A DNA stretch of 64,000 nucleotides, taken from NCBI RefSeq assembly GCF_030698125.1, contig NZ_JAUYNV010000006.1, positions 62,001 through 126,000 on the forward strand, in the 5' to 3' direction. The DNA comes from Methyloversatilis sp. Its GTDB lineage: Bacteria > Pseudomonadota > Gammaproteobacteria > Burkholderiales > Rhodocyclaceae. Shown piece by piece: positions 5,136 to 31,000 of the stretch (positions are counted from its first letter, which is position 1; each line of letters opens with the position of its first letter). The notes below the pieces were generated by a model. That model worked only from the letters and a program-made list of their open reading frames with translations, ran no database searches and was not told the DNA's origin. The position numbers were made by a program, and so were the translations under genes.

Positions 5136-6443
5136 TTGAATTCCGCCTCTTCCGCCGGCCAGCCGGTCGCCGCCGATTCACTGGCTGCAGCCCTGCTTGG
5201 CGCAGCCCACGCCGTGGCTGCCGTGCTCAAGGGTGATGCGCTGGACGACGCGTTCAGCCGCACGCCCGACGCACTGTCGACCAATACCGCCGCCGTGCGC
5301 GACCTGGCCTACCAGTGTCTGCGCGCGCACGCCGCCATCGAGGCCCGGCTCGCCGTGCTGGTGCCCAAGCCGTTGCGCGAGCTCGACCGGCGTGCATTGC
5401 TGCTGGTCGCGCTGTGCCGTCTCGAGGCGCGACCCGACAGTGCGCACACCACGGTCAGCCAGGCGGTCGACGCGGCGCGCACGCTCGGTGGTGACCGCTA
5501 CGGCGGGCTGATGAATGCGGTGCTGCGCAGCGCGCAGCGGCGCGGCGCCGAACTCGACGCCGCCGCATCCGGTGACGATGCAGCGCGCCTGCAGCACCCG
5601 CGCTGGTGGCTTGACCGGCTGCGCCGCGATCACCCGAATCACTGGCAGGACATCGCGCAGCAGGGCAACAACCATCCGCCGATGGCGCTGCGCGTCAATC
5701 GCCGGCGCGCCTCCGTGGATGAGGTACAGGCCCGCCTGGCGGCCGAAGACATCGCGACCACCCGGCACGGCGACACGGGCCTGCTGCTTGAAAAGCCCTG
5801 CCCGGTCGCCCGCCTGCCGGGCTTCGCCGAAGGCTTGATGTCGGTGCAGGATCTCGGTGCCCAGCGCGCCGCCGGGCTGCTCGACGTGCGTGCCGGGCAG
5901 CGCGTGCTCGATGCCTGCGCAGCGCCCGGCGGCAAGGCATCGCATCTGCTGGAATGCGCCGACATCGAACTGCTGGCACTCGACCACAGCGCGCCGCGCG
6001 CGCAGCGCATCAGCGAAAACTTCGCGCGGCTGGGGCTGACCGGCCAGGTGCAGATCGGCGACGCCGCGGCGGTCGACGCGTGGTGGGACGGCCGTCCGTT
6101 CGAGCGCATCCTGGCTGACGTGCCGTGCAGCGCGTCCGGTGTCGTGCGGCGGCATCCGGACGCGAAGTGGTTGCGCCGGCCGGACGACATTGCCCGTTTC
6201 GCCAGGCAGCAGCGCGCCATCCTGGACAGCCTTTGGCGCGTGCTGGCGCCCGGTGGTAAATTGCTTTACGCCACCTGTTCGGTCTTCCGCGCGGAAAACC
6301 ACAAGCAGGTCGCTGCCTTCGTGACCCGCCATGCCGACTGCCAACGCCTGAGCCCATGCGGCGCATTCGATCTGCAACTGCTGCCGGACGCCGAGCATGA
6401 CGGGTTCTACTACGCCCTGCTGCAGAAAACCCCCGGTGTCTGA
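5136..6443 (+). CDS. rsmB: 16S rRNA m5C967 methyltransferase RsmB
   Basis: SAM-dependent methyltransferase that makes m5C967 in 16S rRNA. It has 435 residues: an N-terminal NusB-like RNA-binding domain (about 15-150) and a C-terminal Rossmann methyltransferase domain. The latter carries DACAAPGGK (SAM binding), DVPCSASGV (catalytic-loop PC motif) and YATCS with the second, catalytic cysteine. The start is taken as a TTG at 5136 because no in-frame ATG or GTG precedes the conserved NusB-like helix; this is uncertain. The end overlaps the GTG of the DUF4390 gene by 8 nt. Confidence 0.93.
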   Translation: MNSASSAGQPVAADSLAAALLGAAHAVAAVLKGDALDDAFSRTPDALSTNTAAVRDLAYQCLRAHAAIEARLAVLVPKPLRELDRRALLLVALCRLEARPDSAHTTVSQAVDAARTLGGDRYGGLMNAVLRSAQRRGAELDAAASGDDAARLQHPRWWLDRLRRDHPNHWQDIAQQGNNHPPMALRVNRRRASVDEVQARLAAEDIATTRHGDTGLLLEKPCPVARLPGFAEGLMSVQDLGAQRAAGLLDVRAGQRVLDACAAPGGKASHLLECADIELLALDHSAPRAQRISENFARLGLTGQVQIGDAAAVDAWWDGRPFERILADVPCSASGVVRRHPDAKWLRRPDDIARFARQQRAILDSLWRVLAPGGKLLYATCSVFRAENHKQVAAFVTRHADCQRLSPCGAFDLQLLPDAEHDGFYYALLQKTPGV

Positions 6444-7029
6444 ACGCCCGCCGCTCTGGCCGGGCGTCTGGCGCGTCGTCGTGGCCTGCCTGCTGGCGGT
6501 CTGCCTGGCGATGCCCGGCCACGTCGCGGCGGACGTTGAAATGCGCGACGTGCGGCTCGATCACGGCGACGAGGGCTATCAGCTGTCCACCGACATCGGC
6601 GTCACGCTGTCGCCGCGACTGGCCGAAGCGGTCATGCGCGGCGTGGCACTGTACTTCGTGCTCGAATTCGAAATCAGCCGGCCACGCTGGTACTGGCTCG
6701 ATGAAGAGGTGGTCGAGCGCGCGTTGACCTATCGCCTGAGCTATCACGCACTGACCCAGCAGTACCGGGTATCCACCGGCGCGCTGCACCAGGGCTTCGA
6801 CACGCTCGACGAAGCGCTCAAGCTGATCGGCCGACTGCGCAGCTGGCCGGTGATCGACTCGGCACGCCTGAAGCCCGGCGGCAACTACGTCGCCGCATTG
6901 CGCCTGCGGCTCGATGTGACGCAACTGCCCAAACCGTTCCAGCTCAGCGCGATGAGCAACCGTGACTGGACGCTTGAATCCGAATGGCAGCGCTGGGGCT
7001 TCACCGCGCAGCAGGCGGTGCCGCGATGA
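6436..7029 (+). CDS. DUF4390 secreted/membrane-anchored protein
   Basis: 197-residue protein with an N-terminal hydrophobic segment or signal peptide (VVVACLLAVCLAMPGHVAAD). The DUF4390 domain follows, recognised from DIGVTLSPRLAEAVMRGVALYF and FEISRPRWYWLDE-type sequence (quoted in parts). This family is almost always encoded between rsmB and ntrY in betaproteobacteria, as here. The GTG at 6436 is chosen because it gives a clean signal peptide and overlaps the rsmB stop; an ATG 39 nt upstream is possible. Its stop overlaps the ntrY ATG (ATGA), so coupling to the NtrYX sensor pathway is likely. Function unknown. Confidence 0.82.
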   Translation: MSERPPLWPGVWRVVVACLLAVCLAMPGHVAADVEMRDVRLDHGDEGYQLSTDIGVTLSPRLAEAVMRGVALYFVLEFEISRPRWYWLDEEVVERALTYRLSYHALTQQYRVSTGALHQGFDTLDEALKLIGRLRSWPVIDSARLKPGGNYVAALRLRLDVTQLPKPFQLSAMSNRDWTLESEWQRWGFTAQQAVPR

Positions 7030-9128
7030 GGAACTTCATCTTCGCCAGCGCCGCGCTCAGTGGCGTGCTGCTGCTGCTGCTGTCGCTGGCCAGCGAAAAC
7101 ACCGCGCTGTTTGCGCGCAGCTACCCGTTGCTGCTCGGCCTGAATGTTGCCGTGGCGCTCGGTCTGCTCGGTCTGGTGACGTGGCTGGTGGCGCACCTGC
7201 TGCGCGAACACCGCGCCGCCGTGTTCGGCTCGCGCCTGAAGCTGCGCCTGTTCGCGGCGTTTGCCGCACTGGCGGTGGCGCCGGGCGCGCTGATCTACGT
7301 GCTGTCGGTGAATTTCGTGTCGCGTTCCGTCGATTCGTGGTTCAACGTGCGCATCGAACAGGCACTCGAAGGCGGCCTCATCCTCGGGCGCAACACACTC
7401 GACTACCTGTCAGCCGACCTGCTTGAAAAGGCCCGCACGATGGCGCGCGACCTGTCCGACACACCGCCGCTCAAACGCAGCGCACGGCTCGACGTGCTGC
7501 GCGAACAGGCCGGTGTGGCCAGTGCAACGCTGATTTCGCCGCAGGGGCAGGTGGTCACGACCAGCTCGGCGGCCACCCAGCTCGTGCCGGCATTGCCGTC
7601 GCCGTCGCAGCTGCGGCGGGCGCGCCAGGGCATGGGCCTGACCACGGTGGACACCGACAGCAATGACGGCCTGACCGTGCGTGCGCTGGTATTCATCGGC
7701 GGCGCAACGCTGGCATCCGACGCCCCGGTGCTGCAGTTGCTCCAGCCGCTGCCGGCCTCGCTCGCGCTGAACGCGGAAGCGGTGCAGAGCGCCTATCGCG
7801 ACTATCAGGAACTGTCGCTGGCGCGCGCCGGGCTCAAGCGGATTTTCGCGCTGACGCTGACGCTGGCACTGTTGCTTGCGCTGCTGTCGGCGCTGGCCGT
7901 GGCTTTCGTGATCAGCCGGCGCATGTCGGCGCCGCTGTCCATCCTGGCGCGCGGTACCGATGCCGTGATGCAGGGCGACTTCAGCCCGATTCCGGCGCTC
8001 GCCACGCGCGACGAACTGGGCACGCTGACCCAGTCCTTCCGCCGCATGACCGAACAGCTCAACGATGCGCGCGCGCAGGCCGAGCGCAGCCGCAGCGAAA
8101 CCGAGGCGGCACGCACCTACCTCGAAGGCGTGCTCGGCAACCTGTCGACCGGTGTGCTGGCGTTCAGCCCGTCCACCCGGCTGCGCGCCGCCAACCAGGG
8201 CGCGCTGGCCATCCTGGATGACCGGCTCGAAGGCTGGGAAGACATTGCGCTGGCTCAGTGGCCGCGCCATCCGGAGTTGCGCGACACCATCCTGGCGGCC
8301 ATCGACGAGGGGCAGGAGTCATGGAGCCGGCAGATCGATATCGCCGATCCGGTCGGCCCGGGCAAGACGCTGCTGCTGCGCGGCTCGCAGCTGCCGCAGG
8401 CCGGCGGCGGCGGTTTCGTCGTGGTGTTCGACAACATCACGCAGCTGATCGCGGCGCAACGCAGCGCCGCATGGGGCGAGGTGGCGCGCCGGCTGGCGCA
8501 CGAGATCAAGAATCCGCTGACGCCGATCCAGCTGTCGGCCGAGCGGCTGCAGTTCAAGCTGTCCGACAAGCTCGACGAGGACGGCCAGCGCCTGCTGGCG
8601 CGCGCGACTTCGACCATCGTCGATCAGGTCGAGGCAATGAAGAACATGGTCAATTCCTTCCGCGACTATGCGCGCCTGCCGCAGCCGGTGCTGACGTCGC
8701 TTGACCTGAACCGGCTGGTGGACGAAGTGCTCGGCCTGTACGAAAACTCGACGCCGCGCATCGAACGGCAGCTGGCAAACGATCTGCCGCACATCAGCGG
8801 CGACGCCGGCCAGCTGCGACAGGTCATCCACAACCTGCTGCAAAATGCGCAGGACGCCTCGGCCGATGCCGGCGCCCCGCAGATCAGCGTACATACGCGT
8901 CGCCGCGGCAATCGCGTCGAACTGTCGGTGCGCGACAACGGCCACGGCTTTCCGGCCCAGGTGCTGGCGCGCGCGTTCGAACCCTATGTCACGTCGAAAG
9001 CACGTGGCACAGGCCTGGGGCTGGCCATCGTGAAGAAGATCGTGGATGAGCACGATGGTCGGATCGAAATCGAAAACATCGCGCCGCAAGGCGCTGAAAT
9101 CCGCATTGCGCTGCCGCTGGCAGCCTGA
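7026..9128 (+). CDS. ntrY: Sensor histidine kinase NtrY
   Basis: Membrane kinase of the NtrYX two-component system, which responds to nitrogen or redox conditions in other proteobacteria. The 700-residue protein has two N-terminal membrane helices (about 5-25 and 35-60), a large extracytoplasmic sensor region and another membrane helix near 275-300. A HAMP domain, a PAS domain (about 365-475), HisKA with HEIKNPLTPIQLSAERL (phospho-accepting His) and HATPase_c with DNGHGFP and GTGLGLAIVKK follow. The ATG at 7026 overlaps the preceding stop as ATGA. NtrX starts 13 nt downstream. Confidence 0.95.
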   Translation: MRNFIFASAALSGVLLLLLSLASENTALFARSYPLLLGLNVAVALGLLGLVTWLVAHLLREHRAAVFGSRLKLRLFAAFAALAVAPGALIYVLSVNFVSRSVDSWFNVRIEQALEGGLILGRNTLDYLSADLLEKARTMARDLSDTPPLKRSARLDVLREQAGVASATLISPQGQVVTTSSAATQLVPALPSPSQLRRARQGMGLTTVDTDSNDGLTVRALVFIGGATLASDAPVLQLLQPLPASLALNAEAVQSAYRDYQELSLARAGLKRIFALTLTLALLLALLSALAVAFVISRRMSAPLSILARGTDAVMQGDFSPIPALATRDELGTLTQSFRRMTEQLNDARAQAERSRSETEAARTYLEGVLGNLSTGVLAFSPSTRLRAANQGALAILDDRLEGWEDIALAQWPRHPELRDTILAAIDEGQESWSRQIDIADPVGPGKTLLLRGSQLPQAGGGGFVVVFDNITQLIAAQRSAAWGEVARRLAHEIKNPLTPIQLSAERLQFKLSDKLDEDGQRLLARATSTIVDQVEAMKNMVNSFRDYARLPQPVLTSLDLNRLVDEVLGLYENSTPRIERQLANDLPHISGDAGQLRQVIHNLLQNAQDASADAGAPQISVHTRRRGNRVELSVRDNGHGFPAQVLARAFEPYVTSKARGTGLGLAIVKKIVDEHDGRIEIENIAPQGAEIRIALPLAA

Positions 9129-9141
9129 AAGTCAGGAAAAC

Positions 9142-10389
9142 ATGGCTCGCATACTGGTGGTCGACGACGAGATGGGCATCCGGGAGTTGCTGTCCGAAAT
9201 CCTGCGGGACGAAGGGCACGACGTGACACTGGCAGAGAATGCGGCTGCCGCACGCAGTGCGCGGCTCGCCGCACGACCCGATCTGGTGCTGCTGGACATC
9301 TGGATGCCCGACACCGACGGCATCACGCTGTTGAAGGAATGGGCCTCGGGCGGGCAGCTGACGATGCCGGTCATCATGATGTCCGGTCACGGCACCATCG
9401 ATTCGGCGGTCGAGGCGACACGCATCGGCGCGCTCGACTTCCTCGAAAAGCCGATCGCACTGGCCAAGCTGCTGTCCAGCGTGAAGCGCGCGCTGATCCG
9501 CAGTGCGCCGGCCGAACAGCGCCCGGCCGCACCTTCGCTGGCCGGCATCACGCGCGGTGGTCCGCTGCGCGACCTGCGCCGCCGGCTGGAACAGATGGCC
9601 AGCCGCTCGCGCATCATCATGCTGCGCTGCGGGCCGTCGAGCTTCGCCGAACTGGCCGCGCGCACGCTGGCGGTGCCGGGACGGCGCTGGATCGAACTGG
9701 CCGGCATCCCGGGCGCCATCACGCAGGAACAGCTCGACGCGGCGCGCGGCGGCGTGATCCACGCGGGCGACATCGGCACGCTGTCGCGCATGCAGCAGAA
9801 GAACCTCGCCTTCGCGGTCGACCGGCTGGAGCGGCTCGACGCGAAACTGATCGCCAGCTGTGCCCAGCAGCCGGCGGAGCTGCAGGCGGCTGGCTGGGAC
9901 GATGCCGTGCTGTCGCGGCTGTTCGACGTCGTGCTGCCGCTGCCGACGCTGGCCGAGCTGCGCGACGAAATCGGCGATCTGGCCGACGACGTGCTCAAAC
10001 ACATGGCGGACGCGGGCGAAATTCCGGTGCGCGCGCTGGCCGAGTCGGCCCGCCCGTTGCTGCGCCAGCACCCGTGGCCGGGCGGTTACGCAGAACTGGT
10101 GTCGGCGCTGCGCTCGGCCGCGCTGGCCACCCTCGACGACGATCTGGACGCGAGCGCGCTGCGCGCGCTGCTGCGCCCGGCCGGCAACGCGGCACTGCCC
10201 GGCCTGAACCAGCCGTTGCGCGATGCGCGCGAGGCGTTCGAGCGGCTGTACTTCGAACACCACATGGAACGCGAAGGCGGCAACATGACCCGGCTGGCCG
10301 AGCGCTCCGGGCTGGAGCGCACCCACCTGTACCGCAAGCTCAAACAGCTCGGGCTGCCGGTCGGCCGGCGCACCGAGCATCAGGAGTGA
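9142..10389 (+). CDS. ntrX: NtrX-type response regulator with degenerate AAA+ domain
   Basis: Cognate regulator of NtrY, 415 residues. The receiver domain (1-120) is intact: acidic pocket DDE at 8-10, phospho-acceptor Asp52 and Lys103. A Fis-type helix-turn-helix closes the protein (about 365-410: GGNMTRLAERSGLERTHLYR). The central region, where sigma-54 activators carry an AAA+ ATPase, lacks recognisable Walker A and GAFTGA sequences. Its Walker B equivalent reads GGVIHAGDIGTLSRMQQ, so ATP hydrolysis and sigma-54 remodelling are not expected. It is presumably a classical DNA-binding regulator. The ATG at 9142 follows a CAGGAAAA ribosome-binding site; the longer frame upstream is ntrY out of frame. 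Confidence 0.9.
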   Translation: MARILVVDDEMGIRELLSEILRDEGHDVTLAENAAAARSARLAARPDLVLLDIWMPDTDGITLLKEWASGGQLTMPVIMMSGHGTIDSAVEATRIGALDFLEKPIALAKLLSSVKRALIRSAPAEQRPAAPSLAGITRGGPLRDLRRRLEQMASRSRIIMLRCGPSSFAELAARTLAVPGRRWIELAGIPGAITQEQLDAARGGVIHAGDIGTLSRMQQKNLAFAVDRLERLDAKLIASCAQQPAELQAAGWDDAVLSRLFDVVLPLPTLAELRDEIGDLADDVLKHMADAGEIPVRALAESARPLLRQHPWPGGYAELVSALRSAALATLDDDLDASALRALLRPAGNAALPGLNQPLRDAREAFERLYFEHHMEREGGNMTRLAERSGLERTHLYRKLKQLGLPVGRRTEHQE

Positions 10390-10462
10390 AATACGGGGCT
10401 GAACGGCACGCGTGAGCCGCAGGACCGAACCGGAAGCCCGGGCAGAATCGGCCCGGGCGCCG

Positions 10463-26749: not shown

Positions 26750-27841
26750 ATGAAAGACATGCTGCTCCATGTTGCCGCTGCGGACTTCGAAGCCGCGCGC
26801 CACCTCGAACACCTGCCGACCACCCACCGCGCGCACGCGCTGCACGGCCACAGCTTCACCGGCAGCGTGCGCGCCGCGCTGCCCGAGGGCTGGGGCGGTG
26901 TGGCCGGCGGCGAGGTCGATGCGCTGGCGGCTCGCCTGCGCACGGTGCTCGCGCCGCTCGACTACCGGCTGCTGAACGACACCGTCACCCGGCCCGGCGA
27001 CGAAAATCTCGCGCGCTGGCTGCACGGGCAACTCAACCTGCCCGGCGTGCAAGCGGTCGATGTGCGCAGCACCCGCCACGCCGGCGTGCAGCTGGACGGG
27101 CACGGCGACGCCCACGTGTGGCGCCGCTACGTGTTCCAGTCGGCGCACCAGCTGCCGCGCGTGGCACCCGGCCACAAGTGCGGCCGCATGCACGGCCACG
27201 GCTTCGAAGTGCTGCTGCACGCGAAGGCGGCGCCCGATGCAGCGGTCGACCCGGAACGGATCGATGCCCTGTGGGCGCCGCTGCACGAGCAACTGCATCT
27301 GGCCTGCCTGAACGACATCGCCGGGCTCGACAATCCGACCAGCGAAAACATCGCGGGCTGGATCTGGCAGCAGTTGAAGCCCGGGCTGCCCGGCCTGAGC
27401 TGGGTCACCGTGTACGAAACCGCCAGTTGCGGCGCGCAATTCGACGGCCGGCAGCACCGTGTGTGGAAGGAATTCACGCTCGACAGTGCGGTGCGGCTGA
27501 AGCGCGCACCCGACGGCGACCCGCGCCGGCGCATTCACGGCCACACCTTCACGCTGCGCCTGCACTTGGCTGCGCCGCTCGATCCGGTCATGGGCTGGAC
27601 GGTCGATTTCGGCGACGTGAAGGCGCAGTTCGCGCCGCTGTTCGACCGGCTGGACCACGCGCCGCTGCATGAATTGATGGAGGTGGCGGGCAGCGACGCC
27701 GACAGCGCGAGCCTGGCGCGCCGCATCATGACGCTGGCGACACCGCTGATCCCGTCACTCGACCGGCTCGACCTGTATGAAACCCGCGGCTGCGGCGTCA
27801 TCCTGCAACGCGGCAACAGTGAGCCGACATTGCCGGTGTGA
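26750..27841 (+). CDS. Triple-module 6-pyruvoyl-tetrahydropterin synthase/QueD-like protein
   Basis: 363 residues made of three tandem copies of the 6-PTPS/QueD fold (about 1-118, 124-238 and 239-363), each with an HGH motif: LHGHSF at 31-36, MHGHGF at 147-152, IHGHTF at 262-267. In module 2 the zinc site is complete (His133, His148, His150), as are Cys144 and Glu223. Module 1 keeps the zinc histidines (18, 32, 34) but has Ala28 for the Cys and Ser107 for the Glu. Module 3 has Val248 for the first His but keeps Glu344 and the Asp302-His303 pair, which module 2 lacks (Leu182-His183). The protein probably acts on a dihydroneopterin-like substrate through a composite site. Substrate and pathway (queuosine or pterin) are unknown. 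Confidence 0.8.
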   Translation: MKDMLLHVAAADFEAARHLEHLPTTHRAHALHGHSFTGSVRAALPEGWGGVAGGEVDALAARLRTVLAPLDYRLLNDTVTRPGDENLARWLHGQLNLPGVQAVDVRSTRHAGVQLDGHGDAHVWRRYVFQSAHQLPRVAPGHKCGRMHGHGFEVLLHAKAAPDAAVDPERIDALWAPLHEQLHLACLNDIAGLDNPTSENIAGWIWQQLKPGLPGLSWVTVYETASCGAQFDGRQHRVWKEFTLDSAVRLKRAPDGDPRRRIHGHTFTLRLHLAAPLDPVMGWTVDFGDVKAQFAPLFDRLDHAPLHELMEVAGSDADSASLARRIMTLATPLIPSLDRLDLYETRGCGVILQRGNSEPTLPV

Positions 27842-27889: not shown

Positions 27890-28381
27890 TCACCAGCGCC
27901 CCAGATCGATGCCGAAGGTCACCATGAAACCGGCCGTGCCGAGCAGCGCGACCTGGGCGTTGTAGCGGTCGTACTGGTAGCCCAGCGCCGGAATGACCGC
28001 AAACGCCACGCCCTTGCGGTTGAATGGAATCTTGTCTTCGTACTCGCCGGTATAGCCGAGCAGCGCGCCAGCGGTCACCTTCACGTACAGGTTCGGGCTG
28101 ACCGCGTCGATCGGCCAGCTGCGGCCCGCGTAGTAATACTGGCTGGCCTGCTCATAGGAGTTGCGGAACCAGGCTGCACCGGCATTCCAGCGCGTCGGCG
28201 ACTGGTACTCGAGACCGAACAGGGCCGGGGTGGTGTTGTGGTCCGGATCGCGGTCCCAGTGGTGGACATAAGGTCCGATCTGCAGGCCGATGCGGTGTGA
28301 CGGTGCGGTGGTATCGGCCGAGGCGACGCCACTGGCAAGACAGGCCACGCACAACAGGATGCAGCGGAAGGAAGATGTCAA
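27890..28381 (-). CDS. Predicted outer-membrane beta-barrel protein
   Basis: 163-residue exported protein with a signal peptide (SSFRCILLCVACLASGVASA). Alternating amphipathic strands end in a hydrophobic/aromatic strand (GFMVTFGIDLGRW). Conserved-looking segments are PALFGLEYQSPTRWNAGAAW, LLGYTGEYEDKIPFN and AFAVIPALGYQYDR. I cannot name a family with certainty. The start is taken as TTG at 28381, directly before the signal peptide, because no ATG or GTG fits; this is uncertain. It lies 128 nt downstream of the bufferin-cluster DoxX gene on the same strand and may be part of that transcript, but the gap argues for caution. Confidence 0.62.
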   Translation of the reverse strand: MTSSFRCILLCVACLASGVASADTTAPSHRIGLQIGPYVHHWDRDPDHNTTPALFGLEYQSPTRWNAGAAWFRNSYEQASQYYYAGRSWPIDAVSPNLYVKVTAGALLGYTGEYEDKIPFNRKGVAFAVIPALGYQYDRYNAQVALLGTAGFMVTFGIDLGRW

Positions 28382-28509: not shown

Positions 28510-28968
28510 TCAGTCGCGGCGGCGGCCCAGCAGCCGATCGACAGACAGCGCGCCGGGCCCGAATGCGACCAGCGCCAGCAACCCGACGCCCCACCACAGG
28601 TGCGCCTCGACGGCCGCCGGGCACTCGAATTCCCACAGCGCAGGGTAGGACACGACGGCCATCACATTCACGATGAACAGGCCCAGCGCGGCAAAGCGTC
28701 CGGCCAGACCGATGGCGAGCAGCGGCGGCAGCACGATTTCGCCGACGGTACCCATGAAGGCTGCGATGGCGGGCGGCAGCAGCGGCACCTTGTACTCTTC
28801 GGTGAACAGGAAAAGCGTGGTGTCCCAGTCCTCGATCTTGGTCAGACCGGCTTTCATGAACACCCAGGCGATATACAGGCGCAGGGCCAGCAGCAGCAGC
28901 GGCTGCACCTGATCGGCGAGGCGCGCGAGCGGCGCGCCGAGGTCGTATGCGCGGGTTACAGCGTTCAT
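28510..28968 (-). CDS. DoxX family membrane protein of bufferin cluster
   Basis: 152-residue inner-membrane protein with four predicted helices, DoxX family. It begins with LRLYIAWVFMKAGLTKIEDW, has an acidic loop (DTTLFLFTEEYKVP) and a second core segment PPAIAAFMGTVGEIVLPPLL. DoxX-like proteins are frequent last genes of DUF692/DUF2063 operons, where they may deliver electrons or assist export; the role is not proven. Its ATG overlaps the stop of the DUF2063 gene as ATGA (28965-28968), showing tight translational coupling. Confidence 0.86.
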   Translation of the reverse strand: MNAVTRAYDLGAPLARLADQVQPLLLLALRLYIAWVFMKAGLTKIEDWDTTLFLFTEEYKVPLLPPAIAAFMGTVGEIVLPPLLAIGLAGRFAALGLFIVNVMAVVSYPALWEFECPAAVEAHLWWGVGLLALVAFGPGALSVDRLLGRRRD

Positions 28969-29765
28969 TGTTCGTTTCCCCTGGTTTCGATGTGGTGCAG
29001 CCAGCCGCATGCAATGGCCTGTTCGATGGCGGCTGCGAGGTTGAAATCCTGTTCGTGCGTGGTGGCGCCGGCCCAGGCGTCGCCGAAGCTGGCACCCACC
29101 AGCGCGATGGCGGCCCAGAATGCGTGGGCGCCGACGGACAGCGACGCCACCCGCACGCGCAGCCCGTCACGCCACACGACGGCGTACTGGGCCTGTTCAA
29201 GATCGATGTCGAAGGCGTCGCCCGACCCGGCGGCGGCGTCCGGCTGATGCTGCAGCCAGATGTCGGCAATCGGCCATGCACTGCCGAGCAGCGCGAAGCC
29301 GGGCGTCATGTGCAGGCGCGCCGTGGCCAGCGCATCGGGGTCGAGGCCGGCAAAGGCCTCGCCGCCAAGCGGCGCGGTATCGGCCGCCGTCGTCGCGACA
29401 TGCACCAACCATTCGAGGCGGGCTACGTCGGGCAGGTAGGGCAGCGCGCGCACCGGCTCGAAGCCGTCGAGAAAGTCGGCGAAGTGGTCGCCGTAACGAT
29501 TGAGGTCGCCGTCGGTCGATGGCGTCAGCGCCCAGTAGCGGCGCACCAGCGCGTCGAAGTAGTCGTCGCCGGTGATCTGCCGGCACACCGGGTAGGCCAG
29601 CGTCAGTGCGGCATTGGCGTTCGCTACCGCATTGCCGCGATAGACACCGAGCAGGCCGCGGTTGCGTTCGGCGTCGCCGGTGAGCAGCGGCAGCATGGCC
29701 GGTTCGCCCTGCGCGCTGCGCAAGGCGCCCGCGAAGCGGCGCTGGGCGTCAAGCAGCGCAGACAT
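28965..29765 (-). CDS. bufC: BufC-like DUF2063 protein (RiPP partner)
   Basis: 266-residue soluble protein with an N-terminal DUF2063 (putative DNA-binding domain) region: LLDAQRRFAGALRS, then GLLGVYRGNAVANANAALT and YPVCRQITGDDYFDALVRRY. The C-terminal domain is less conserved. In bufferin and methanobactin systems such partners bind the precursor and work with the DUF692 enzyme during cysteine modification. The start at 29765 is preceded by GGAGA and overlaps the DUF692 gene by 17 nt; an in-frame ATG 12 nt upstream is an alternative. Family and context agree. The exact role is inferred from described systems. Confidence 0.85.
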   Translation of the reverse strand: MSALLDAQRRFAGALRSAQGEPAMLPLLTGDAERNRGLLGVYRGNAVANANAALTLAYPVCRQITGDDYFDALVRRYWALTPSTDGDLNRYGDHFADFLDGFEPVRALPYLPDVARLEWLVHVATTAADTAPLGGEAFAGLDPDALATARLHMTPGFALLGSAWPIADIWLQHQPDAAAGSGDAFDIDLEQAQYAVVWRDGLRVRVASLSVGAHAFWAAIALVGASFGDAWAGATTHEQDFNLAAAIEQAIACGWLHHIETRGNEQ

Positions 29766-30603
29766 GGCGGTCTCCATCCGACGTGCCGGCGTCGGCTCCG
29801 ATGCGATCGGCACGGGCCGCCTCGGCCAGCAGGATGTCGAGTTCCGGCAGATCGGTATCCCACTCGATCAGCGCCGGTGCGCCGACACCACGCCGGCGCA
29901 CGGCGGTGAGCAGCGCCCACACGTCGTCGCACACCGCGCTGCCGTGGGTATCGATCAGGCCGTACTCGGTCACCGCGTGACCGGCCAGATGGATTTCCCG
30001 CACCGCGTGCATCGGCAGCTGTTCGAGCGCGTCCATCGGGTCGCTGCCGAAGTTGCGCGCATTCACGTACAGGTTGTTCAGGTCCAGCAACAGTCCGCAA
30101 CCGGTCAGGCAGACCAGATCGGCCAGAAACTGTGCTTCGGTCATCTGCGCGTCGCGAAACTGCACGTAGGCCGACAGGTTTTCGATCAGGACCGGGCGGC
30201 GCAGGCGGTCCTGCAACGCATTCACGCGCGCCGCGACCAGCGCCAGTGCCTCGCCGGTGTAGGGAAAGGGCAGCAGATCGTTGAAGTGGATGCCATCAAC
30301 CGCGCCCCAGCACAGGTGCTCGGACACGAACGCAGGTTCGATGCGCTCGACCAGCTTTGCCAGCCGTTCGACATGCGCCTGGCTGCGCGCATCGACCGAC
30401 GCCAGCGCCAGCCCGACGCCGTGCAGGCTGACCGGATAGCATTCGCGGGCGCGTTCCAGCGTGCGCAATGCGGCGCCACCGTCATGAAAGAAGTTTTCGC
30501 TGTGCACCTCGACAAAGCCGATGCGCGGTCGTTCTTCCAGTACGCGGGCGTAGTGCGGCTGGCGCAGACCGATGCCGGTCGGCGATACAGGATGCAGGAT
30601 CAT
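29749..30603 (-). CDS. bufB: BufB-like DUF692 multinuclear iron enzyme (MNIO)
   Basis: 284-residue DUF692 protein with a TIM-barrel fold and 2-3 iron sites. Metal-ligand motifs seen: SLHGVGLAL (His61), SEHLCW (His96), IENLSAY (Glu141), LDLNNLYVNARN (Asp174), EIHLAGH (His205, His209), DTHG (Asp218, His220) and IEWDTDLP (Glu247). MNIOs use oxygen to modify cysteines of peptide precursors; bufferin enzymes convert core cysteines to thiooxazoles that bind copper. It sits 48 nt after the precursor gene and overlaps the DUF2063 partner gene. All visible catalytic motifs are intact. Confidence 0.92.
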   Translation of the reverse strand: MILHPVSPTGIGLRQPHYARVLEERPRIGFVEVHSENFFHDGGAALRTLERARECYPVSLHGVGLALASVDARSQAHVERLAKLVERIEPAFVSEHLCWGAVDGIHFNDLLPFPYTGEALALVAARVNALQDRLRRPVLIENLSAYVQFRDAQMTEAQFLADLVCLTGCGLLLDLNNLYVNARNFGSDPMDALEQLPMHAVREIHLAGHAVTEYGLIDTHGSAVCDDVWALLTAVRRRGVGAPALIEWDTDLPELDILLAEAARADRIGADAGTSDGDRHVCAA

Positions 30604-30651
30604 GGGAATCTCGGGACAGGGATGCAGCCGTCCGGCCGCATCCCCGGGGCA

Positions 30652-30918
30652 TCAGCCCTTCTTTGGCGCTGCGGTCTTGCCGCCCATCTTTTCGCAGGTG
30701 CCCGACGCGACATACTTCCATTCGTTCGGATCATTGTCGGCCTTGGCCTGACCGGCGCAGCTGTGCGAGCCATTTGCCGAAGCGCAGTCATTCGCGCCCT
30801 TCTTGGCAACGCCGAAGCATTTCTCCTTGCCTTCTTCGGCAGCGAACACGGGCGTCGACACGACACCGAGGGCGAATACGGAAGCGAGTGCGGCAGAAAG
30901 GGCGGCGGACTTGTTCAT
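30652..30918 (-). CDS. bufA1: Bufferin-type RiPP precursor (DUF2282)
   Basis: 88-residue exported precursor. A Sec signal peptide (residues 1-26, cleavage after PVFA) precedes a short mature part with four cysteines at 34, 45, 54 and 75 in the DUF2282 pattern [20 protein letters not shown] and GTCEKMGG. The tail is Lys-rich (KTAAPKKG). Such precursors are modified in the cytoplasm by the DUF692/DUF2063 pair, exported and thought to chelate copper in the periplasm. The ATG at 30918 follows AGGAG. It is the first gene of the operon precursor / DUF692 / DUF2063 / DoxX. Confidence 0.9.
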
Positions 30919-30971
30919 GTGTGATCTCCTGAGGGTGAAAAAATCAAACCGGTCATGTGGTTTGCACCGCA

Positions 30972-31000
30972 GTAGACCCTGCAGTACGCAGAACCTTACC
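30972..31000 (-). promoter_or_regulatory. Possible ECF-type promoter of bufferin operon
   Basis: On the minus strand GGTAAGG (30994-31000), a 16-nt spacer and GTCTAC (30972-30977) resemble the GTAAGG / CGTCTA pattern of some extracytoplasmic-function sigma promoters. It lies about 54 nt upstream of the precursor ATG. Bufferin operons elsewhere can be under ECF sigma control, but no sigma gene is adjacent here, so this remains a guess. Confidence 0.3.

Follow-up and report, generated by a model that had tools for sequence, protein, structure and literature searches.

The operon examined here raises the question of what switches on a bufferin operon that has no sigma factor gene beside it. It spans positions 28510-30918 (minus strand) of a 64,000-nucleotide (nt) stretch of Methyloversatilis sp. 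(RefSeq assembly GCF_030698125.1, contig NZ_JAUYNV010000006.1, positions 62,001 to 126,000), which is called the window below, and it consists of four genes in the order DUF2282 precursor (bufA), MNIO enzyme (bufB), DUF2063 partner (bufC) and DoxX-family protein. We propose, with a probability of roughly 0.78, that this Buf1-type operon is transcribed from an extracytoplasmic function (ECF) type of promoter, that a distant, autoregulated sigma factor held by a DUF3379 protein of the zinc-anti-sigma (ZAS) kind would act on this promoter, and that copper buffering and methionine repair would be switched on jointly.

The assignment of the operon to the bufferins of the Buf1/DUF2282 type, put forward in an earlier sequence-only reading of the window, is well supported by profile scores, cysteine spacing and gene order, and by itself the operon is an ordinary member of this known family. 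All four proteins exceed their Pfam cut-offs (precursor against DUF2282, 86.2 bits, cut-off 22.4; bufB against PF05114, 327.6 bits; bufC against PF09836, 72.2 bits; the DoxX protein against PF07681, 57.2 bits), and bufB also passes the NCBIfam model MNIO_BufB (345.2 bits, cut-off 310). The 88-residue precursor starts with a hydrophobic, Sec-type N-terminus, as judged by eye, and the translated open reading frame (ORF) has its cysteines at 34, 45, 54 and 75, as described in that reading. The ATGA overlap between bufC and the DoxX gene was likewise recovered, as was the overlap of 17 nt between bufB and bufC, which is valid if the ATG at 29765 is taken as the bufC start (an alternative GTG at 29813 is also in open frame). 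The DUF2063 protein, a partner of PME type 1 that stands third in the bufABC order, had no match in the PDB when used as a single-sequence query.

Using the MNIO to scan public genomes, we collected 42 loci (L002-L043), and gene presence was scored by phmmer inside the available flanks; among these loci, the nearest named relatives of the enzyme belong to Methyloversatilis (93-94% identity). The search for the same gene order in related genomes, which had been suggested as a check, was positive: the precursor, MNIO and DUF2063 genes co-occur in 39/42 loci, with a bufA-like ORF in 39/42 (not in L028, L041 and L043), a DUF2063 homolog in 41/42 and a DoxX homolog in 33/42. The four cysteines are in register, with spacing of 11, 7-9 and 21, in all 39 precursors compared (the window and 38 loci, omitting L018, which is truncated, and the additional copy in L023). 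The metal-ligand motifs of the MNIO are intact, as had been claimed: His61, His96, Glu141, Asp174, Asn176, His205, Asp218, His220, Glu247 and Asp249 are invariant in 42/42 enzymes (bufB of the window, those of 40 loci and the other MNIO of the same genome, omitting L041 and L043), and each of the ten is aligned with an identical residue in the solved structure of MNIO 3bww, the final four within a second segment that is weak, whereas 8hci and 7tcr align with bufB more partially, and some motif residues differ or fall outside the match. Presumably, iron is bound by residues of this set. With ligand motifs and cysteine pattern intact, the partner gene present and the operon kept in 13/13 genomes of the genus, it is extremely unlikely that the product is an unmodified or non-functional peptide. 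Two other loci are arranged differently. In L012 (Aromatoleum anaerobium, 6001-10425), the order is unusual, the MNIO and DUF2063 genes lying ~1.8 kb from a bufA-DoxX pair, and in L023 (Pelagibius marinus, 5271-5855) a tandem pair of DUF2282-type precursors stands ahead of a single MNIO gene.

Two MNIO matches were found in the Methyloversatilis genome itself; thus, the earlier statement that there is one precursor is correct for the locus but not genome-wide. The second MNIO (G000:C17:206891-207670) is preceded by a six-cysteine precursor, which scores 101.9 bits against NCBIfam BufA2 (cut-off 60), and followed on the 3' side by a DUF2063 gene; no DoxX homolog was found in the 8 kb around this Buf2 operon. 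Two MNIO matches per genome, one close to each of the two types, were detected in 13/13 genus genomes, and the six-cysteine pattern at Buf2 is also present in 13/13.

The evidence for a promoter comes from the DNA ahead of these two operons. Upstream of bufA (the window and L002-L008), there are two invariant blocks, GTAAGGT and GGTCTACTGC, a fixed distance apart, and upstream of Buf2 we identified by eye GTAAG and GGTCTA, separated by one base more than at Buf1. The pattern GTAAGN{16,17}GGTCTA has two matches in the 4.2-Mb genome, which are the Buf1 and Buf2 sites, and 22 matches in the 13 genus genomes, every one of which (22/22, by coordinates) precedes one of the two MNIO operons; thirty other spacings together produced 18 matches in the 13 genomes, that is, 0.6 per spacing versus 11. 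GTAAG-N17-GGTC is invariant upstream of Buf2 in 13/13 genomes. When the sites are sorted by the genes that follow, with GTAAG and GGTC fixed by the search pattern, the spacer is 16 at the Buf1 sites in 13/13 genomes and 17 in the other six classes. A longer motif, GTAAGGT-N14-GGTCTACTG, searched with up to 3 mismatches, had one exact match (bufA) and four matches with three mismatches versus 18 in the reversed control, and was dropped in favor of the two-block core because the control outnumbered the matches. When the DNA ahead of bufA was scanned for GTAA-type elements in 31 loci from other genera, three isolated matches were obtained (L022, L034 and L037).

The same element stands ahead of a sigma factor gene. 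The genome contains 24 matches to sigma region 4, many of which belong by eye to response regulators, and only one of them, the ECF sigma gene G000:C41:6013-6519 (minus strand), has the element just before its start; a second core match adjoins another region-4 gene (L061) but precedes msrB-msrA. Orthologs of the C41 sigma factor were found in the other 12 genus genomes at 85-99% identity, and upstream of the gene GTAAG-N17-GGTCT is invariant in 13/13 genomes, in surrounding DNA that is hardly alignable. The sigma gene is adjoined by a gene for a protein of the DUF3379 family (106.6 bits against a cut-off of 33.2), which has an N-terminal cysteine and the ZAS motif HxxxCxxC in 13/13 genomes and, by eye, one hydrophobic stretch. 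On this basis, DUF3379 proteins are candidate anti-sigma factors of the ZAS kind; among the matches listed in the open-licence literature, we found no papers on a DUF3379 anti-sigma factor or on DUF3379 by name. The earlier claim that no sigma/anti-sigma pair adjoins the operon holds at the locus, but a candidate pair is encoded in trans. A home-made ECF profile detected an ECF gene next to bufA in at least 6/42 loci (L024, L026, L027, L029, L030 and L031), a lower bound given that some flanks are short, and found none within the available flanks of the seven genus-type loci L002-L008. As the genome has several further ECF-type sigma genes, a genuine element could have a different reader, either a sigma factor other than C41 or a regulator that binds DNA, the C41 sigma gene being just another target; we consider this unlikely, given that the C41 gene is the only region-4 match so preceded, and that autoregulation is usual for ECF sigma factors, meningococcal sigma-E being a case (PMC2893595).

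Shortening the pattern to the core GTAAGN{16,17}GGTCT extends the set to a candidate regulon. The core has seven matches in the Methyloversatilis genome and 93 in the 13 genomes, of which 72 precede orthologous genes. Coordinates place 38 of the 93 (Buf1 13, sigma 13, Buf2 12), and in the DNA downstream of the other 55 we recognized MsrP (11), an ArsS-type radical S-adenosylmethionine (SAM) enzyme (10), exported MsrB-MsrA (9) and a sensor-type regulator (4). The MsrB, MsrA, MsrP and ArsS proteins of the Methyloversatilis genome score above the NCBIfam cut-offs; for the ArsS-type gene (L157, site G000:C17:121797-121823), which has the element ahead in 10/13 genomes, the score against TIGR04167 is 451.6 bits versus 300. 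Both bufferin operons share the element with the sigma gene and with periplasmic methionine sulfoxide reductases, and the operon would thus be one part of a broader regulon for envelope stress. These motif matches suggest that the bufferin, sigma and oxidised-protein repair genes act together as one envelope-stress response, and the element yields, for an environmental genus, a candidate regulon that is small and can be tested, with two bufferins, two methionine sulfoxide reductase systems, a radical SAM enzyme and a sigma factor. The sensor-type gene (L156, site G000:C14:47809-47835), by eye perhaps a sigma-54 activator, has the element ~31 nt before its start, in 4/13 genomes.

It should be noted that a number of observations weigh against this proposal. 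Reversed-pattern controls had more matches than the motif itself: 82 versus 22 for GTAAGN{16,17}GGTCTA, and, for the core, 12 versus seven in the Methyloversatilis genome and 173 versus 93 in the 13 genomes. Words containing CTA are rare in such genomes, so the reversed control is imperfect; however, the raw counts are not enriched over it, and therefore only position and spacing serve as evidence. The pattern was derived from the two sites of the Methyloversatilis genome, the 13 genomes are related and their counts are therefore not independent, and the Buf2 site of genome G012 reads GGTCAA. Another 21 of the 93 core matches fall outside the assigned classes, including two ahead of DUF1223-like genes and one ahead of a thioredoxin-like gene (names given by eye), a site in G010 that is identical to the site of the sensor-type regulator but for which no ORF was recovered, and three identical sites ahead of one gene resembling the phosphotransferase system (G001-G003). 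The exact element is absent for MsrP, the radical SAM enzyme, MsrB-MsrA and the regulator in 2, 3, 4 and 9 of the 13 genomes, respectively, which is a count of motifs and not of gene presence. At the level of NCBIfam models, the bufA precursor (31.4 bits against BufA2, cut-off 60), bufC (45.3 against HvfC, cut-off 142) and the DoxX protein (57 against HvfX, cut-off 80) score under the cut-offs. The sigma-promoter link is drawn from a shared motif, not from a mutant, and the element carries no information on copper specificity. The excess of reversed matches would fit a reading in which the element is a fossil or a chance match and the operon depends on a housekeeping promoter, on a CueR- or CopR-type copper regulator, or on both. 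This is very unlikely in view of the fixed spacing and of the invariance in 13/13 genomes at Buf1 and the sigma gene; no sigma-70-like site was found near bufA, which adds little, as 0.5 are expected in shuffled sequences and the null is uninformative.

The proposed sequence of events, in which the chemistry, export and copper binding follow accounts of relatives (PMC12452194, PMC13097082 and PMC13419390), is as follows. The BufA peptide would be made in the cytoplasm, where the MNIO (BufB) and its DUF2063 partner (BufC) would convert the two central cysteines to 5-thiooxazoles, the outer two probably forming a disulphide. The peptide would then be exported by Sec and bind copper in the periplasm, and the DoxX protein probably helps in the membrane. 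By homology, copper buffering appears to be the best-supported function (PMC12452194, PMC8224329). Transcription of bufA would proceed from the ECF-type promoter and not via an adjacent regulator, with the distant C41 sigma factor as the most likely activator that reads the element and the DUF3379/ZAS protein as its probable holder. The same switch would serve the Buf2 operon, MsrP, MsrB-MsrA and the ArsS-type radical SAM enzyme. On exposure to copper or to a thiol-attacking oxidant, the sigma factor would be set free, and copper would be buffered and oxidised methionines repaired together.

Among the closest known systems, that of Caulobacter vibrioides (crescentus) has a similar set of effectors: the DUF2282-MNIO-DUF2063-DoxX order, a second MNIO-DUF2063 operon, and one ECF sigma factor, SigF, that drives both MNIO operons and MsrPQ (PMC3511200, PMC8224329). 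There, however, sigF-nrsF is a direct neighbor of the operon with DoxX, NrsF acts as the anti-sigma factor and SigF recognizes GTAACC-N16-CGAA, whereas here there is no NrsF match in the genome (E<=0.001), a different contig carries the sigma gene next to that of the DUF3379/ZAS protein, and the element is GTAAG-N16/17-GGTCT; thus, the locus does not belong to the SigF-NrsF bufferin systems, which have NrsF in the genome and the sigma gene beside the operon. The promoter resembles that of meningococcal sigma-E, for which the consensus is -35 GTMAGBWTT, a spacer of 12-13 and -10 CGTCTAAH (PMC2893595). Written in the same form, this is GTMAG-N17/18-GTCTA, and the element described here has that layout: it agrees in its first five bases, in spacing and in GTCT, and varies at later positions. 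The likeness to Neisseria meningitidis extends to the ZAS-type neighbor (NMB2145, or MseR, which is encoded beside sigma-E and is its anti-sigma factor), to a sigma gene with its own element (sigma-E autoregulates), to msrA/msrB as targets, and to a DoxX-like gene in the operon (PMC2893595). In N. meningitidis, by contrast, the MNIO operon itself contains the sigma gene and has an EGKCG-type precursor, whereas in Methyloversatilis the sigma gene is not linked to the operon and the two precursors belong to Buf1 and Buf2. A thiooxazole peptide is produced by the MNIO-DUF2063 operon of gonococci, and more than 20,000 examples of captophorins have been reported in RefSeq (PMC13097082). Judging from sequence, the system resembles that of Caulobacter in its effector set and those of Neisseria in its promoter and kind of anti-sigma factor. 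Further background was drawn from PMC3240639.

The Haemophilus influenzae system is similar in that the ECF sigma factor RpoE2, under hypochlorous acid (HOCl), drives msrAB, a periplasmic methionine sulfoxide reductase and a DoxX/MNIO/DUF2063 operon (PMC7907618), and differs in its EGKCG-type precursor (PMC13097082), its molybdo-reductase, which is MtsZ, and the induction by HOCl, which has been demonstrated there. This response of like gene kinds, the element common to MsrP and exported MsrB-MsrA, the ZAS protein adjoining the sigma gene, and the detoxification of hypochlorite by sigF/nrsF with yedYZ in perchlorate reducers (PMC4623255) would all fit a doubtful, though possible, alternative: the operon and regulon are the same but serve chiefly against hypochlorite or other oxidants of thiols; the modified peptide would provide a thiol that is sacrificed or linked to repair, and its binding of copper would be secondary. 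Conversely, copper induced the SigF regulon of Caulobacter under every condition tested and a mutant in sigF was sensitive to copper (PMC3511200, PMC8224329), purified thiooxazole peptides bind copper (PMC13097082), and expression of meningococcal sigma-E was unchanged by the oxidants tested (PMC2893595). The last of these results also bears on our own proposal, in which an oxidant may act as inducer, together with one from Cupriavidus metallidurans. Its gigPABT operon with rpoQ-rsqA has the same four gene types and copper- and gold-induced transcription (PMC10304878), and differs in having adjacent and divergent sigma/anti-sigma genes, as in 6/42 loci here, none of them genus-type; control by RpoQ was assumed in that work, not demonstrated, and deletion of rpoQ did not lower gig expression (PMC10304878). 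In view of this deletion and the meningococcal oxidant results, control by a sigma factor cannot be taken for granted in all operons of this kind, and both belong with the points against our proposal given above.

What we report as a variant is the predicted combination of Buf1 and Buf2 with MsrP, MsrB-MsrA and ArsS under an unlinked sigma factor with a ZAS neighbor; no papers on a bufferin regulon in this genus were found among the matches listed in the open-licence literature. On balance, we lean toward the view that two bufferins and periplasmic methionine repair form a conserved effector module. SigF-NrsF runs it in Caulobacter; in this genus it would have come under an ECF sigma factor that is unlinked and autoregulated, has a thiol-switch anti-sigma factor of the DUF3379/ZAS kind and adds the ArsS-type radical SAM enzyme. 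The same effector set under a seemingly different anti-sigma factor suggests that selection keeps the pairing of bufferins with methionine repair. If true, bufferins would be one arm of a general envelope response to sulfur oxidation and soft metals and not a copper device alone; the inducer of a bufferin and the products made with it decide whether such peptides are copper buffers, oxidant shields, or both.

Table 1. Features of the bufferin locus, in window coordinates.
Feature	Position	Strand	Remark
bufA, Buf1 (DUF2282) precursor, 88 aa	30652..30918	minus	four Cys
bufB, MNIO (DUF692 / MbnB_TglH_ChrH) enzyme, 284 aa	29749..30603	minus	
bufC, DUF2063 partner protein, 266 aa	28965..29765	minus	17-nt overlap with bufB
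DoxX-family membrane protein, 152 aa	28510..28968	minus	ATGA overlap with bufC
ECF-type promoter element GTAAG-N16-GGTCT (-35 side at 30999)	30974..30999	minus	55 nt before bufA start codon; function inferred
Hairpin in bufA leader	30945..30964	minus	just after -10 block
Barrel-like ORF downstream of DoxX, TTG start	27890..28381	minus	no Pfam/NCBIfam match; judged outside the system

The leader hairpin was recognized by eye in 11/13 genomes, with covarying arms (AAACC/GGTTT and AAGCC/GGCTT), and in 8/13 by minimum-energy folding; we do not claim it as an attenuator, the T-run being missing in several genomes. The barrel-like ORF, which is small and looks secreted, begins 128 nt past the DoxX stop codon, at the distance previously noted. 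In the genus-type loci, the barrel gene is present in 7/7, a ROK gene in 7/7 and a QueD-like gene in 5/7, and no barrel gene was found in the 35 other loci within the flanks examined (0/35). This is genus synteny, and the barrel gene was therefore rejected as a bufferin component, as nothing found ties it to the pathway. The QueD-like protein of the window (26750-27841, plus strand, 363 aa) contains three 6-pyruvoyl-tetrahydropterin synthase stretches in one chain, and its homologs in those five loci are likewise located beyond the barrel gene.

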